Assembly (NCBI GenBank): GCA_030679035.1
Contig: JAUXTH010000133.1
Coordinates: 1-51,392 of the forward strand
Direction of reading: 5' to 3'
Source: Methylobacter sp.
GTDB lineage: Bacteria > Pseudomonadota > Gammaproteobacteria > Methylococcales > Methylomonadaceae
DNA: 51,392 bases
In this document: positions 553 to 42,516 of the stretch, one piece after another
Layout of the letters: every line of letters begins with the position of its first letter
How positions within the stretch are numbered: the first letter of the stretch is position 1
Program-made: the position numbers and the translations under genes
Notes under the pieces: generated by a model
Told to the model about the DNA's origin: nothing
What the model saw: the letters and a program-made list of their open reading frames with translations, nothing else
Database searches by the model: none

Positions 553-1089
553 TTAAAAATCATCTTCTTGTAACACCATTTTTTGATAACCGTCGTTGTC
601 TTTAAATTGTTTAGCTAAGTTTTCCCGTCCCGATTGCGCTAGCCGTTGATGAAAACTGGAAAACGGATATTCGTGTAAATTATCACAATAGCCATGCTTG
701 ACCGGGTTAATCAATAAATAATTTAACCGAACCCTATAATCCTTTTCATCGCGCGGGCAATAATCCCAAAAGTTCCACCAAACCGGCAGATCACATGCGC
801 AATGCGCTTGAATAACATGACTGGTTACGCCATGAATTTTACGAAATATATTACTCAAATCATCGCCCTTATTGCTCATGCCAAGCAGATGATAATGATT
901 ATCCAGAATCACCCAATCATTGAGCACCCAGTCTTTCTCAATAAAGCAGTCCTGAATCGTCTCAAGTAAATGCTGCTTGATGGCATCGGCTGCCAACAAC
1001 GGTCTTTTTTGATAAATGGCGCTGGTAACAAAATAGGGTGTATTGTCCAAAAATAAATGCGCTGGCGTATGTAAACTTTTCTTTAGCAT
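553..1089 (-). CDS. REP-associated tyrosine transposase (RAYT, IS200-like Y1 family)
   Basis: A 178-residue single-strand transposase of the HUH/Y1 class, thought to mobilise or process REP palindromes. The HUH motif is visible as NHYHLLG near residues 107-113. The later segment NYLLINPVKHGYC matches the conserved RAYT region around the catalytic tyrosine (usual form YIHxNPVKHG). The length is near the family's usual size and the reading frame is intact from ATG 1087-1089 to TAA 553-555. It is bracketed by two inverted pairs of 20-bp palindromes, which are probably its cognate REPs. The gene sits between two ABC permease genes of one operon and has the same orientation, so it may be read from the operon promoter. 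The family assignment is firm; activity is not shown. Confidence 0.9.
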   Translation of the reverse strand: MLKKSLHTPAHLFLDNTPYFVTSAIYQKRPLLAADAIKQHLLETIQDCFIEKDWVLNDWVILDNHYHLLGMSNKGDDLSNIFRKIHGVTSHVIQAHCACDLPVWWNFWDYCPRDEKDYRVRLNYLLINPVKHGYCDNLHEYPFSSFHQRLAQSGRENLAKQFKDNDGYQKMVLQEDDF

Positions 1090-20905: not shown

Positions 20906-21012
20906 CCATTAAGTTAATCACAAAGACACCGTAGGAGCGGGCCGCGCCCGCGATATTTGAGCAATGACTGCTAAGTTGCATCCCCTTGTTCGCGGGCATG
21001 GCCCGCTCCTAC
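20906..21012. repeat. MITE-like palindromic repeat with an inverted REP pair, copy 1
   Basis: An inverted pair of 23-bp units: GTAGGAGCGGGCC-type at 20931-20953 and its near reverse complement at 20990-21012. It is preceded by CCATTAAGTTAATC at 20906-20919, which corresponds to the left terminal inverted repeat of copy 2 (26032-26148). The right terminal repeat is not recognisable here, so this copy looks truncated or worn. The unit resembles the GTAGGAGCGGGC REP family well known from Pseudomonas. It fills most of the 399-bp gap between fhcB and pdxA. The rest of the gap (20713-20905) should hold the fhc promoter, but I cannot place -35/-10 boxes confidently. Confidence 0.85.
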
Positions 21013-21111
21013 AAGGTTGATTCCGACTCAATCTCATCTTCAAAATCAGCGTTTTTTAAATCACCCCGGCAGTTATGCTGTAAAATCACTCTTTTTTATT
21101 TCAGCTTTCAG

Positions 21112-26031: not shown

Positions 26032-26148
26032 CCCATTAAGTTAAGCACAATGACACCGTAGGAGCGGGCCGCGCCCGCGATATTGGGACTATAAGTTGTG
26101 CTTCATCATCGCGGGCATGGCCCGCTCCTACAACGCTTAACTTAACGG
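26032..26148. repeat. MITE-like palindromic repeat with an inverted REP pair, copy 2 (complete)
   Basis: A 117-bp element. Terminal inverted repeats are CCCATTAAGTTAAGC (26032-26046) and GCTTAACTTAACGG (26135-26148). Inside are two 23-bp REP units in opposite orientation, 26058-26080 and 26109-26131, identical in sequence to those of copy 1 at 20931-21012. It has no coding capacity. It lies between the NlpE-like gene and the 3' end of iscA. Confidence 0.88.
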
Positions 26149-26506: not shown

Positions 26507-27616
26507 TTATCCTTTTTCGACTAAGGATTTTAATTGTTTAATAAATTCAAAAATTTCAGCTTCGGTGTTGGCTTTTCCCAAACTGATGCGGATTGCGCTT
26601 TTTGCCTCGGCAGCTTCAACGCCCATCGCGACCAACACCGGGCTGGGTTCTCTCATGCCGCTGGCGCAGGCCGAGCCGCTGGAAACGGCGATGCCTTTTT
26701 GATCCAGTTGCATCAGCAGCATTTCGCCGTCGACGCCGTGAACGCCCATTTGCACGGTATTGGGTAATCGCTCCGCCTGCTCGGCAAAAACAGTCAGGCC
26801 GGGAATCGCGCTTAAGCCGTGCTCCAGCAGATTTTTAAGTTTTAGCAGATGCGCCTGCCGTTCGGCAAGTTCGGTTTTGGCAAGTTCCGCAGCTTTGCCG
26901 AACCCGACAATGGCGGCGACATTTTCAGTCCCGGCCCTGAGTCCTTGCTCCTGCCCGCCGCCCAACAAGACCGGCTTTATCGCCACGGATTTATCGCACA
27001 CCAGCGCGCCGCAGCCTTTGGGGCCGTAGATTTTATGGCTGGACAGCGACATCAAATCTACGCCGAGCCGGTTAAAATCTACCGGGATTTTGCCCAGCGC
27101 CTGCACGGCGTCAGTATGAACCTTGATGCCCTGCGCTGTTAGCTGATCGGCATAGCGAGCGATATTCTGCACCGCGCCGTTTTCGTTATTTGCCAGCATG
27201 ATCGAAACAAGGCCGGGCTTTAACCGGATAACCTCGTCGATAGCATTCTGCGTTATCCGGCCGTTAGCATCGACCTTAAGCAGGGTAAGCTGATGTCCCA
27301 GGCTTTGTAAATACAGGGCAGGCTCTATGACCGACGGATGTTCAATAGATGAAACGGCGAGTCCGGCCTGAGGAGCCAGCGTCGCCAAAGCCAGATTATT
27401 GGCTTCGGTACCGCCGCTGGTAAAAATGATTTGCCCCGGCTGGACACCAATCAGCGCCGCAAGCTGCTCACGGGCTGCATCAACGGCGCTCTTGGCGGCC
27501 CTGCCGAGACGATAAAGACTTGAAGGATTGCCGTAAAATGTTTTCAGGAACGGAAGCATCGCCTCCAGAACGCGATCATCTATCGGTGTGGTCGCGTTAT
27601 GATCCAGGTAGATCAT
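26507..27616 (-). CDS. iscS: Cysteine desulfurase (IscS/NifS class I)
   Basis: Pyridoxal-phosphate enzyme that takes sulfur from cysteine for Fe-S cluster assembly. The 369-residue protein shows the class I features: the start MIYLDHNATTPIDDRVLEAM, the PLP lysine in SLSSHKIYGPKG near residue 200, and the persulfide cysteine in SSGSACASG near residue 320. It is shorter than E. coli IscS (404) and lacks that protein's longer C-terminal tail, so it may be a NifS-like variant. The 63 bp between it and iscR consist almost entirely of a 53-bp hairpin repeat, so its translation signals lie in or next to that repeat. Confidence 0.92.
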   Translation of the reverse strand: MIYLDHNATTPIDDRVLEAMLPFLKTFYGNPSSLYRLGRAAKSAVDAAREQLAALIGVQPGQIIFTSGGTEANNLALATLAPQAGLAVSSIEHPSVIEPALYLQSLGHQLTLLKVDANGRITQNAIDEVIRLKPGLVSIMLANNENGAVQNIARYADQLTAQGIKVHTDAVQALGKIPVDFNRLGVDLMSLSSHKIYGPKGCGALVCDKSVAIKPVLLGGGQEQGLRAGTENVAAIVGFGKAAELAKTELAERQAHLLKLKNLLEHGLSAIPGLTVFAEQAERLPNTVQMGVHGVDGEMLLMQLDQKGIAVSSGSACASGMREPSPVLVAMGVEAAEAKSAIRISLGKANTEAEIFEFIKQLKSLVEKG

Positions 27617-27620
27617 GCAG

Positions 27621-27673
27621 TTATCGCCATGGATGGTGTGTATGTCGCTAGCCTGCCGGGAGCAGGCGCGGCG
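27621..27673. repeat. 53-bp hairpin repeat, copy A (iscR-iscS gap)
   Basis: Identical at 46 of 53 positions, without gaps, to 29491-29543 inside trmJ. It contains a hairpin GCCTGC / GCAGGC at 27651-27656 and 27662-27667. It begins 4 bp from the iscS start codon and ends 6 bp from the iscR stop codon. Confidence 0.88.
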
Positions 27674-27679
27674 CGAGCG

Positions 27680-28153
27680 TTATTCGGGACGATAACAAAC
27701 TTCAATAGCCTGCTGTGCATCATAATGCTGTCTTTTCGCAACTTCCTGAACCTGATCCTTTTCTAACAGGTCGGCTAAAGAAATGCCCACCAAATAAGTC
27801 CTGATTTGTTTGCTCAAGCCCATCCACAGGTTATGCGTTAAACAGGCATCGCCTTTCTGGCAATTCCCCTCGCCGCCACATTTGGTTGAATCGAGCGGTT
27901 CATCAACAGCCGCGATAATCTCGGCAATATTAATTTCGCCGGCCTTACGACACAGCTTGTAGCCGCCTCCAGGTCCACGGACGCCTTTGACCATGCCTGC
28001 GCGGCGCAGACGGGCAAATAGTTGTTCCAGATAAGACAGGGAAATGGTTTGACGAGCCGCAATTTCCGTCAGGGTGACCGGTTTGACTTGACTGTGGAAA
28101 GCCAAGTCCAGCATTGCAGTGACCGCATAGCGACCTTTAGTTGTTAAACGCAC
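27680..28153 (-). CDS. iscR: Fe-S cluster-sensing transcription regulator IscR (Rrf2 family)
   Basis: Rrf2-family winged-helix regulator that senses [2Fe-2S] status and represses the isc genes. I prefer the GTG start at 28151-28153 (VRLTTKGRYAV..., 157 residues) because AGAGGAAG stands six bases before it and this is where IscR proteins begin; an ATG eight codons upstream is in frame. The three cluster-ligand cysteines are in KCGGEGNCQKGDACLTH, followed by the conserved histidine. A promoter with an overlapping IscR-type site lies just upstream, as expected for autoregulation. Confidence 0.95.
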   Translation of the reverse strand: MRLTTKGRYAVTAMLDLAFHSQVKPVTLTEIAARQTISLSYLEQLFARLRRAGMVKGVRGPGGGYKLCRKAGEINIAEIIAAVDEPLDSTKCGGEGNCQKGDACLTHNLWMGLSKQIRTYLVGISLADLLEKDQVQEVAKRQHYDAQQAIEVCYRPE

Positions 28154-28315: not shown

Positions 28316-29080
28316 TTAGCCTTCTCTCCCAAAACCATCCTCAATTTCGCAGCCATCCAATTTTGAAATAGGCGATTCGGTGTATTTAATGCCAGCATCA
28401 TTGAGCGCTTTTTGCAGGGTTTCTATCTGTCTGTCCATCTCGTGAATATGATCGAGCATATGATTAATGGCATAGGCGATTGGATCGGGTACGTCGGTTG
28501 TTGCGCCGTAGGCATGAAAGCCCATCTTGTAGGCAATCTTGTCACGCTCGGCTGTTGCGGCTTTGCTGTTAGGGTCGACGATATGGGCGGGAATGCCGAC
28601 CGCAGTTGCGCCCGCCGGTACCGGTTTTAACACCACCGAGTTTGAACCCACTCGGGCGTTTTCACCAATATCAATAGGCCCCAAGACTTTTGCCCCCGCA
28701 CCGATCACCACGCCGTTATGCAGGGTCGGATGACGCTTGCCTTTATCCCAGCTGGTTCCACCCAAGGTTACGCCATGATACAAGGTGCAGTCGTCACCGA
28801 TAATGGCGGTTTCGCCGATCACCACACCCATGCCGTGATCGATAAAAAAACGCCTGCCGATGACTGCGCCGGGGTGAATTTCAATCCCGGTCAGCCAGCG
28901 GCCGATATGAGCGATAAACCGGGCCAACCATCTGAATCCGGCTACCCAGAAAAAATGGCTGACCCGGTGAATCAAAACAGCATGAAATCCGGGATAGGTG
29001 GTAATCACCTCAAAAACCGTTTGCGCCGCCGGATCGCGGTCGAATACGCAGGCAATATCTTCTTTTATTCGGTTAAACAT
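28316..29080 (-). CDS. cysE: Serine O-acetyltransferase
   Basis: Makes O-acetylserine from serine and acetyl-CoA, the first step of cysteine synthesis. The 254-residue protein has the left-handed hexapeptide repeat region ([39 protein letters not shown]) with the catalytic DHG ([13 protein letters not shown]) and the conserved HPT (KRHPTLHNG). The start overlaps the trmJ stop by 8 bp, the usual trmJ-cysE-iscR order linking cysteine supply with Fe-S assembly. Confidence 0.95.
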
Positions 29081-29864
29081 CGTTATTCCTCTTGTGGCCT
29101 TGAGACATCCTTAAGATGCCCCGGAGTATGTCCAATTCCTTGGTATCCATTTGTACCCGGTTATAAATCCGGCGCAAACGCCGCATGATGGATCTTGATT
29201 TGGCGGGATGCATGAAACCTATATCTGCTAAGACTTCAGCCATGTGAGCATAGAAAGACTCCATTTGCGCCGCCGTGGCCAAGGGGTCTTCGCCTTTGTC
29301 GCCGACAATGATTTCTTCCTGCGCGGCCATCCCGGATGCGACGAACAATTCATAACAAACCACCTGCACAGCTGCGGCGATATTTAGAGAGCTGTATTCG
29401 CTGTTGCAGGGAATGCGCAGTAAAAAGTGGCACAGATCCAGTTCGTGGTTCTTTAAGCCTGAATTTTCACGGCCGAAAACGATAGCCACTTTATTGCCAG
29501 GGATGGTGTGTATGCCGCAAGACTGCTGGGAGCAGTCGCGGCGATTGCCGGGTTCCTTGATCAACACTTTTTCCGCACATTCTCTGGGCGTCAGCTCCGG
29601 CCAGCTGATGGTCCGGCCTCGGGCGCTGGCACCGATCACCAGCTGGCAGTCGGCAATGGCCTCCTGCAAGGTCTGGCAAACGGTCGCACCGGCCAGTACG
29701 TCATCCGCCCCGGAAGCCCTGGAGGTGGCGTCGGCACTGGGGAATATTTTTGGCGCAACCAGCCAGAGATTGTGCATCTTCATGTTTTTCATCGCACGGG
29801 CAACGGCACCGATATTCCCCGGATGCGTCGTTTCGACCAGCACAATTTTTATAGTAGACAGCAA
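29073..29864 (-). CDS. trmJ: tRNA (cytidine/uridine-2'-O-)-methyltransferase TrmJ, with a repeat inserted in frame
   Basis: SPOUT-family enzyme that 2'-O-methylates position 32 of tRNAs. I prefer the TTG start at 29862-29864 ([20 protein letters not shown]), with AAGGA upstream, because it matches E. coli TrmJ (MLQNIRIVLVETSHTGNMG). This gives 263 residues against 246 in E. coli. The difference is explained by about 17 extra residues ([17 protein letters not shown]) just before the [12 protein letters not shown] motif. They are encoded by a copy of the 53-bp repeat and flanked by two PGN tripeptides. The frame is unbroken and the catalytic motifs ([32 protein letters not shown]) are intact, so the enzyme is probably functional. 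Confidence 0.93.
29491..29543. repeat. 53-bp hairpin repeat, copy B (inside trmJ)
   Basis: Copy of 27621-27673 with 7 differences. The hairpin is GACTGC / GCAGTC: relative to copy A, stem positions 32 and 46 changed from C-G to A-T, keeping the pair. ATTGCC occurs at both edges (29493-29498 and 29544-29549), like a target duplication. The net gain is 51 bp, 17 codons, with no stop in the frame used. Confidence 0.9.
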
Positions 29865-38685: not shown

Positions 38686-38922
38686 CGTCATTCCGGCAGG
38701 GATGCCGGAATCCAGGCACAGGGATGTGAAAGCTCACAGACATCCGACGCTTCTATACAACTTGACCTGCTAGGCTTGAGTTACCATCCATGGCACTGGA
38801 TACTGGCATAACCCACAGGGAGGTGGGGAATGCAGATATTGCATAAGGCCATGAATGGCCTGTAGTAGAGCAACGCAGGAGCAGTTGCCGAGGAGCAAAT
38901 ATCTGTCCCTGCCGGTATGACG
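38686..38922. repeat. REPIN-like repeat, copy 1, interrupted by a 97-bp insert
   Basis: Begins CGTCATTCCGGCAGGGATGC and ends CCCTGCCGGTATGACG. It matches copy 2 (39395-39530) along its length, except that 97 bp (38810-38906) interrupt the right-hand unit between CTGGCAT and CCCTGCC. The insert has an 8-bp inverted repeat CAGATATT (38833-38840) / AATATCTG (38898-38905) and an inner hairpin GGCCATGAATGGCC. Copies 1 and 2 bracket the GIY-YIG gene in the same orientation. Confidence 0.83.
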
Positions 38923-39038
38923 TTTCCTCAGAAGACTTGCGTATAAAGCTTCCCTGTCGGAATAACGGACTTTTGTCACTGGCTGGAACATCCTTGCTAA
39001 TCAGCTAGTCATTTGCTGTCGTAGTACAAAGCGGCTCT

Positions 39039-39335
39039 TCAATTGGCAATCAAATCTGCCCACAAATCCCGCCATTCGAGATTAGCCTGTTCAATCAATC
39101 CAAGCTTGGCAACGCGGCGCCAACGTTTAATTTCCTTTTCTCGCAAGATGGCGCTTTCCATACGTTCATGCGCCTCAAACCAAACCAAGGTATGGACTTT
39201 ATATCGCTTGGTAAACCCAGCAACCAGATCATTACGATGTTGATAAACGCGCTTAATTAAGTCGGAGGTCACTCCAACATAAAGCGTCCCGTTCCGTCTG
39301 CTGGCGAGGATGTAAACATAAGGCTGTTTATTCAT
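39039..39335 (-). CDS. GIY-YIG nuclease superfamily protein
   Basis: A 98-residue protein with the GIY-YIG core: YVYILASRRNGTLYVGVTSD near residues 6-25, a conserved arginine in LIKRVYQHRN, and the catalytic glutamate region LREKEIKRWRRVAKLGLIE. It belongs to the small YhbQ/UPF0213-like group, single-domain proteins common next to repeats and mobile DNA in proteobacteria; function unknown. It is flanked at about 117 and 60 bp by two copies of the same palindromic repeat, so gene and repeats may have moved or spread together. Confidence 0.88.
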   Translation of the reverse strand: MNKQPYVYILASRRNGTLYVGVTSDLIKRVYQHRNDLVAGFTKRYKVHTLVWFEAHERMESAILREKEIKRWRRVAKLGLIEQANLEWRDLWADLIAN

Positions 39336-39394
39336 AAGGATGTTTTTTAGAGGAATTCCTGATTAACAAAGAATTGCAGCCAACACCGAAGACA

Positions 39395-39530
39395 CGTCAT
39401 TCCGGCAGGGATGCCGGAATCCAGGCACAGGGATGTGAAAGTATACAGACATCCTGCACTTCCAAATAGCACACGTAAATCGAAAGTACCATCCATGGCG
39501 CTGGATACCGGCATCCCTGCCGGTATGACG
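39395..39530. repeat. REPIN-like repeat, copy 2 (uninterrupted)
   Basis: A 136-bp element: left unit CGTCATTCCGGCAGGGATGC at 39395-39414, continuing to the CCAGGCAC region; right unit CTGGATACCGGCATCCCTGC with CGGTATGACG, ending at 39530. The two units are inverted relative to each other (TCATTCCGGCAGGGATGCCG against CGGCATCCCTGCCGGTATGA). Confidence 0.87.
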
Positions 39531-42411: not shown

Positions 42412-42516
42412 GGAGTGCAAGGCTGGCCTTGCGCAATATGGAGCGGTTATAGTACAAGGCAAGCCTTGTACTCCATTGGGACTTAACTTCTCCCGTTCCC
42501 GCGCGCTACGCGGGAA
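42412..42516. repeat. Two further palindromic repeats downstream of the FtsH-like gene
   Basis: First, GGAGTGCAAGGCTGGCCTTG (from 42412) and CAAGGCAAGCCTTGTACTCC (ending 42474), an inverted REP-type pair. Second, GTTCCCGCG / CGCGGGAAC at 42494-42516, a stem ending four bases before the gene's stop codon. The gap 42224-42519 contains nothing else I can support. Confidence 0.75.

Follow-up and report, generated by a model that had tools for sequence, protein, structure and literature searches.

A dispersed 51-bp two-hairpin repeat family lying in frame within genes of Methylobacter

Short palindromic repeats with open reading frames that lie in frame within genes for conserved proteins are known as Rickettsia palindromic elements (RPE) and Wolbachia palindromic elements; RPE are given a length of about 100-150 bp and 12-bp terminal inverted repeats, with a question mark on target duplication, and an RPE-bearing Gmk is reported to be translated and active (PMC2229807, PMC3767692). 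REPs carry a GTAG or CGTC tag at one end of the palindrome and are mostly intergenic, and intragenic REPs are listed for several species, including copies in UvrD/Rep helicase and tRNA pseudouridine synthase genes (PMC3733652). Non-autonomous palindromes derived from IS200/IS605 have been termed PATE (PMC4853749), and PARCELs and the enterobacterial RU repeats add coding sequence to genes (PMC2996958 and PMC2759123). A search of the literature, Methylobacter included, found no description of the element reported here, which is weak evidence of novelty given the thin coverage of subscription journals.

The window analyzed here, a stretch of 51,392 nucleotides from a contig of the methane-consuming Methylobacter sp., holds two copies of a structured repeat. 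A sequence-only reading of the window had matched positions 29491-29543 in trmJ to positions 27621-27673 without gaps at 46 of 53 positions, and recomputation gave the same value (87% over 53 nt). The core shared by the two copies occurs twice in the window compared to 0.03 times expected from shuffling. The features of both loci are listed below, with bit scores obtained with R1, a covariance model built from 51 copies, and with loops in brackets.

29076..29864, minus strand: trmJ host gene (TIGR00050 4e-71, PRK15114 5.4e-74; solved chains 4xbo and 4cnd), followed by its stop codon
29493..29543, core on the plus strand, antisense to trmJ: element copy in trmJ, 51 bp or 17 codons, 77.9 bits with R1
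29495..29508, plus strand: hairpin 1 of the trmJ copy, TGCCA [GGGA] TGGTG, double changes at 3 of 5 pairs over 51 copies
29514..29542, plus strand: hairpin 2 of the trmJ copy, GCCGC aa GACTGC [TGGGA] GCAGTC GCGGC, double changes at 9 of 11 pairs over 51 copies
29491..29496, plus strand: trmJ junction TT^ATTG, from the site logo (46 places) and the empty alleles; site consensus WT^ANNG
27623..27673, plus strand: second copy, intergenic between the ORFs labeled iscR and iscS and antisense to both, 78.5 bits with R1

The trmJ ORF encodes 287 amino acids when read from a GTG and 263 from an internal TTG. Subtraction of the 17-residue insert leaves 246 residues, as had been proposed from the sequence, and this is also the length of model PRK15114. 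The protein scores above the cut-off of TIGR00050 and reaches 248.8 with PRK15114, short of the cut-off of 280. The 17 residues lie directly upstream of the VAIVFGRE segment and give a 16-residue gap in alignments with the solved TrmJ chains 4xbo and 4cnd. A TrmJ match was present in 22 of 23 genomes of the genus. The protein is uninterrupted in 18 of these (244-246 residues), and their empty alleles read CACTTT^ATTGCCGGG (or GTTGCC); the other four, our own genome (G000) and G009, G012 and G018, share an insert of 51 bp at one and the same position. The proposed gain of 51 bp or 17 codons is thereby confirmed, with the insert (29493-29543) absent in 18 relatives, and carriage of the insert is not general among the TrmJ orthologues of the genus and the solved chains. 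In a tree of the TrmJ flanks G000, G009 and G012 form one clade (support 1.0) and G018 stands apart (0.586), so that one gain followed by loss, transfer and a second hit are all possible. The 17 residues in TrmJ are probably a tolerated passenger.

The second copy has an empty allele of the exact length in G019. In this region (window 27614-27680) it lies six bases from the start of the 369-aa ORF labeled iscS, and may therefore belong to the leader of that gene. The names iscR and iscS are labels taken over from the sequence-only reading.

The 51-bp consensus of the core strand is ATCGCCA nGGA TGGTG TGTAT GCCGC aa GCCwGy CnGGA rCwGGC GCGGC G, or ATCGCCA[nGGA]TGGTGTGTATGCCGCAA..[CnGGA]..GCGGCG in short form. 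It comprises two hairpins, the first with an NGGA and the second with a CNGGA loop. NGGA is constant in both loops; the N and the stems are variable. The length is 51 bp in 52 of 54 copies, the exceptions being L028 (52 bp) and L038 (50 bp). Over 51 distinct copies 96.3% of the paired cells could pair, compared to 86.8% after shuffling, changes on both sides occurred in 12 of the 16 pairs, and the covariation score was 0.317 vs 0.136; none of 500 shuffles reached the real pairing or covariation values. The exchange of a C-G for an A-T stem pair between the two window copies (GCCTGC..GCAGGC vs GACTGC..GCAGTC), which had been taken as support for a selected hairpin, is indeed present. A single change between two copies proves little, and it is the double changes across 51 copies that give the hairpin its support. 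Folding of individual copies was likewise uninformative, with z-scores against shuffles of −1.0, −1.4, +0.4 and +0.2, and the structure is backed by covariation instead. Hairpin 1 often contains a G-U pair, a hint that folding takes place in the core strand. Comparison of the window with Rfam at the curated threshold returned three tRNAs only, leaving the element unmatched, and the seven Rfam matches obtained with four element loci at E values up to 10 were each below the gathering score.

The consensus has no stop codon in any of the six frames, which means that an insertion in a gene adds 17 residues in frame, or 34 in the case of a pair. Not all copies share this property: 39 of 53 have six open frames, compared to 9.4% of random 51-mers with equal composition, and the other 14 are closed in at least one frame.

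The genome G000 (4.79 Mb, 216 contigs) contains many further copies. The core pattern gave 70 matches with at most 3 mismatches, 22 of them exact, vs 5 matches for the reversed pattern. R1 gave 92 matches at E ≤1, of which 55 scored above 54 bits, with the next step at 43 bits. One of these 55 (C39:50239) is a copy of sister subfamily C and was excluded, which leaves 54 copies of family A at 46 places, namely 38 single copies and 8 tandem pairs with 51-bp spacing. The view of the sequence-only reading that this is a dispersed structured repeat inserted in frame was thus supported by copies throughout the genome and the genus.

All 22 other genomes drawn from the genus contained R1 matches, 2 to 87 each with sister subfamilies included, and 4 of the 22 had at most 8. 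Outside the genus matches were found in 6 of 14 genomes from other genera of the family (1 to 8 matches) and in 1 of 24 from other families. A wider draw from the order under strict filters gave matches in 37 of 151 genomes; the numbers were 24 to 42 within the genus and 1 to 11 outside it. In a class-wide draw 3 of 185 genomes matched: the own genome, one with 7 matches and one with a single match. A genome of the same class but another family, outside the order (G277), has seven R1 matches of up to 59.6 bits, and a related family therefore exists further afield. Among the matches listed (80 of at least 111 stretches), the exact 26-base pattern occurred in Methylobacter, Methyloglobulus, Methylovulum and one member of the Methylococcaceae. 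Viral contigs (searched with the exact pattern only), plasmids and phages gave no element matches, and spread by phage or plasmid was rejected on this basis.

The sister subfamilies are about 51 bp long and have NGGA loops on other stems. Their copies are inserted after a C and start with GAC, with the same length; a check of 15 of the 25 rows showed a preceding C in 14 and a surrounding open frame of at least 150 codons in 14. In L199 (G000:C204:400-5400), L203 and L209, copies of subfamilies B and C of about 51 bp each, with NGGA loops, are adjacent and occur in both orientations.

The presence or absence of the element in relatives was followed at the DNA level. For 40 in-ORF places three relatives were searched with the joined flanks, and 80 stretches were fetched. 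DNA could be aligned for 38 of the 46 places, the other 8 having no alignable relative allele among the fetched stretches. An empty site of exact length was found at 26 of the 38 aligned places (36 relative alleles), a count by length that includes L045, with a shifted junction, and L022 and L041 (34276), which lack the T. At these 26 places the net gain was exactly 51 or 102 bp, without net loss. At coding places 78 of 83 alleles of relatives differed from the empty length by a multiple of three, partly deleted copies included; the five others are at the 3′ ends of ribF (L028) and an olsB-like gene (L031).

Across the 46 places position −1 is T in all, position −2 is A or T in all, position +1 is A in 25, and position +4 is G in 36, A in 9 and C in 1. 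The empty alleles of relatives, which have since diverged, have T in 22, A/T in 20 and the +4 G in 21 of 26 cases. The target is (A/T)T^ANNG, abbreviated WT^ANNG, and the element is inserted 3′ of the T without target duplication. The ATTGCC found on both sides of the trmJ copy had been taken for such a duplication, but the left ATTGCC is the left end of the element, which at this junction resembles the target site, and the right one is host sequence. The element starts with AT(C/T)GCC even where the right flank looks different, and the absence of a duplication follows from the exact gain of 51 or 102 bp with constant ends and variable flanks (26 of 38 places). PATE, too, are not known to have a target duplication. 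The element family is polymorphic between species of the genus, and presence or absence at the same sites argues for movement.

The places that lie wholly in ORFs of at least 150 codons number 41 of 46, compared to 327 of 400 random windows of the 51-kb window (p 0.25). The in-ORF share is that expected by chance, so genes are not avoided. An NCBIfam scan of 38 ORFs left 5 without a family at 1e-10. The host genes above the curated cut-off are dnaN, mnmE, purH, lipoamide dehydrogenase, RNase R, uvrD, recO, minC, ribF, ttcA, the TrmJ family, epmA, sufD, heme o synthase, glnE, oligopeptidase A and comEC; genes for RsmJ-like, GDP-fucose synthase and OlsB-like proteins, among others, were below the cut-off and are assigned tentatively. 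The genome has one match for dnaN, which is single-copy, and one full and one weak partial match for purH. Alignment with the solved DnaN chain 7rzm shows a 17-residue gap at the insert; the alignment with a solved PurH chain is less clean there. The OlsB-like acyltransferase gene (L031, G000:C53) has two tandem pairs near its two ends and an apparent degenerate further copy, and its 3′ end varies among relatives.

In-ORF copies are oriented sense in 20 and antisense in 21 cases. The junction coincides with a codon boundary in 32 of 41 in-ORF places, compared to 48-59% predicted from site frequencies in 171 own coding sequences (p 8e-5 to 0.008). Much of this frame use is explained by target choice; the remainder may reflect selection against certain frames. 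The maintenance of frame suggests that the inserts are translated.

Divergence after insertion was examined in 23 ungapped single-copy orthologue pairs. The fraction of differing positions was 8.0% in stems, 6.5% in the GGA of the loops, 9.4% in the rest of the element and 13.3% in the flanks. The changes in pairs consisted of 10 double compensating, 19 one-sided but still paired and 12 pair-breaking cases; in 8 the G000 copy was the unpaired one. Sense and antisense copies were equal, with stems 89% Watson-Crick in both and similar GGA loops, and selection at the mRNA level was rejected because the two classes do not differ. That antisense copies keep stems and loops equally well seems to mean that the structure matters for propagation and not for the host message. 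In the glnE copy (L009, G000:C89:52237) and its counterpart in G019 (L152) the second loop is inverted, TTCCCGA vs TCGGGAA.

The tandem pairs may be favored by the left end of the element itself. Since the element starts with ATCG and thus resembles the target, its insertion recreates a site, WT^ATCG, and the same T could receive a second copy. We compared 17 alleles of relatives at such places, of which 10 were single copies and 7 were empty, partial or double. In 8 of 10 cases the single copy was nearer to the 3′ member of the G000 pair and in the other 2 to the 5′ member, which fits the entry of a new copy upstream. The members of a pair were alike over the first 21 bases (20.4 of 21; none of 10000 re-pairings was as high), while the last 30 bases (22.6 of 30) were no more alike than by chance (p 0.26). 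In orthologues, the change rate of hairpin 2 is not much faster (8.8% vs 7.2%). In the 8 tandem pairs of G000 (L025, L032 and L035 for example) rare variants of hairpin 1 are common to both members and those of hairpin 2 are not. The shared 5′ parts weaken the idea that the members are simply independent insertions, and neither simple duplication nor simple independent insertion explains the pattern. One guess is that the 5′ part might be copied from the resident element.

Matches to Y1 transposases occur in 23 of 23 genomes of the genus. None of the 12 in G000 is within 10 kb of an R1 match. A scan of 30 Y1 loci of the genus gave no clearly flanked gene, and the sole match above 13 bits was a weak related element (25.8 bits, L185). 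This element of G010 (L185, 2000-2083) lies near the only Y1 match of that genome, inside a larger palindrome, enclosed by a perfect inverted repeat of 16 bp, AGACCTTCCAGGTTTT. The search for a REP/RAYT parent gave no Y1 near the G000 copies and only this weak related element beside the single Y1 of G010. G010 (81 R1 matches) and G005 (38) have one Y1 match each, with very different scores. Elements derived from IS200/IS605 show an orientation bias with replication, toward the lagging strand. In G019 the strand ratio was 9:8, without bias at the low power of n = 17; the count, made by hand, comprised the places above 50 bits on C1 and C2, with a tandem taken as one and the skew derived from 59 of 60 stretches, and the C3 copies were left out because the skew of C3 was unmapped.

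Other repeats are present in the window. A Y1-transposase match of 26.7 bits and RAYT-like size (793-1011, minus strand) is bracketed by a different palindrome, GTTCAAAGC..GCTTTGAAC, at 477-552 and 1106-1198. This palindrome is also present at 42412-42484, and the window has related copies at other places. A paired repeat with GTAGGAGCGGGC occurs in two copies (20906-21014 and 26033-26133) and looks by eye like a GTAG-tagged REP. Repeats starting with CGTCATTCCGGCAGGGATGCCGG, direct and inverted, are found at 38686-39530 and have, again by eye, the appearance of a CGTC-tagged REP.

The best explanation of these observations, to which we assign a probability of about 0.78, is a dispersed and tolerated family of 51-bp elements at WT^ANNG sites that would spread in trans through a hairpin-recognizing enzyme. 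The element would be non-autonomous and be moved by a putative enzyme that recognizes the hairpins of the core strand, with an intermediate that is probably single-stranded. An enzyme of this type acting in trans is the most likely agent; the odds that it is of the Y1 kind are roughly even or less. Persistence may be due to the 3n length and the open frames, which would make many hits tolerable, and the host would have no use for the peptide.

That the segments are ancestral and were repeatedly lost from relatives is highly improbable. Some sites are filled in genomes that are not sisters, such as TrmJ in the G000/G009/G012 clade and in G018, but loss would require exact deletions of 51n bp at 26 places, TrmJ is empty in 18 of 22 genomes and in the solved chains, and 54 similar 51-bp segments occur in unrelated genes. 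We consider the chance of an assembly or binning artefact negligible: although many genomes of the genus are drafts or metagenome-assembled, the same sites are filled in independent assemblies, and R1 has 43 matches, 22 with scores above 50 bits, in G019, an assembly of three scaffolds. A role as a host-selected RNA module, for example a pair of CsrA/RsmA-binding hairpins that tunes the genes entered, has several observations on its side: the CsrA/RsmA site motif is ANGGA in a hairpin loop, the CANGGAUG loop resembles it, NGGA is constant in both loops and in the sister subfamilies, and G000 has one CsrA match. This role is nevertheless very unlikely, since 21 of 41 in-ORF copies are antisense with loops and stems equally kept, empty alleles exist at 26 of 38 aligned places, and the element has no match in Rfam.

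Two readings accept mobility and differ in its agent. An ordinary REP-type or IS200/IS605-derived element, with REP/REPIN moved through RAYT or PATE through Y1 and a cognate Y1 in the genus, is a possibility that we regard as doubtful. It would account for a small hairpin-bearing unit inserted 3′ of a short target without duplication, and Y1 matches are available in 23 of 23 genomes. It does not account for a consensus without GTAG or CGTC, the lack of a Y1 match within 10 kb of an R1 match in G000, a site that extends 4 bases downstream (+4 G), or a 9:8 strand ratio (n 17) without replication bias; the 41 of 46 intragenic places also differ from most REPs, which are reported to be intergenic (PMC3733652). 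Less likely still is a new class of mobile micro-element with a mobility unlike that of described transposons, in which a protein, either of the host or selfish, would bind a structured single strand with NGGA hairpins. This strand is possibly RNA, given the frequent G-U pair of hairpin 1. Recognition of the hairpins could be CsrA-like, the inserted unit at WT^ANNG would be length-locked at 51 bp and open in six frames, and in tandems the 5′ part would be copied from the resident and hairpin 2 from elsewhere.

In-frame invasion by palindromes has so far been discussed mainly for the obligate intracellular Rickettsia and Wolbachia, in which experiments are hard. Here the same habit is found in free-living bacteria of one genus. 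The empty sites are clean, the target is defined, species differ in which sites are filled, and one insert lies in the single-copy gene of the sliding clamp, so that movement of the element and tolerance by the proteins are directly testable. The results suggest that a 3n length and six open frames suffice to make genes near-neutral ground for a selfish element.

The nearest published phenomena are the Rickettsia and Wolbachia palindromic elements and the intragenic REPs. The likeness to RPE in an unrelated lineage, which the sequence-only reading had pointed out, is supported: the element shares the habit of lying in frame within conserved genes (41 of 46 places in ORFs, 78 of 83 alleles 3n). 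By description it differs from RPE in its 51-bp length, two internal hairpins, WT^ANNG target, lack of duplication and occurrence in a free-living gammaproteobacterium. Small palindromes in many copies also recall the GTAG/CGTC REPs, but the element is a 51-bp unit, mainly intragenic, for which no flanked RAYT was found (12 Y1 matches in G000, 30 loci of the genus); the consensus has neither tag on either strand, and of the 54 copies 2 contain GTAG somewhere and 10 contain CGTC. MITEs have terminal inverted repeats and target duplication, whereas this element is without these (exact gain of 51 or 102 bp, 26 of 38 places). With CsrA-binding hairpins it has ANGGA in a loop in common, but its antisense copies are equally conserved. 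With PARCELs and RU repeats it shares, by description alone, the addition of coding sequence. It is similar to PATE in being short, palindromic and inserted 3′ of a short target without duplication (T at −1, 46 of 46), and it differs from them in that no parent IS with matching ends was found (R1 ≤26 bits, 30 Y1 loci), that the site reaches downstream, and that a small sample showed no replication-strand bias.
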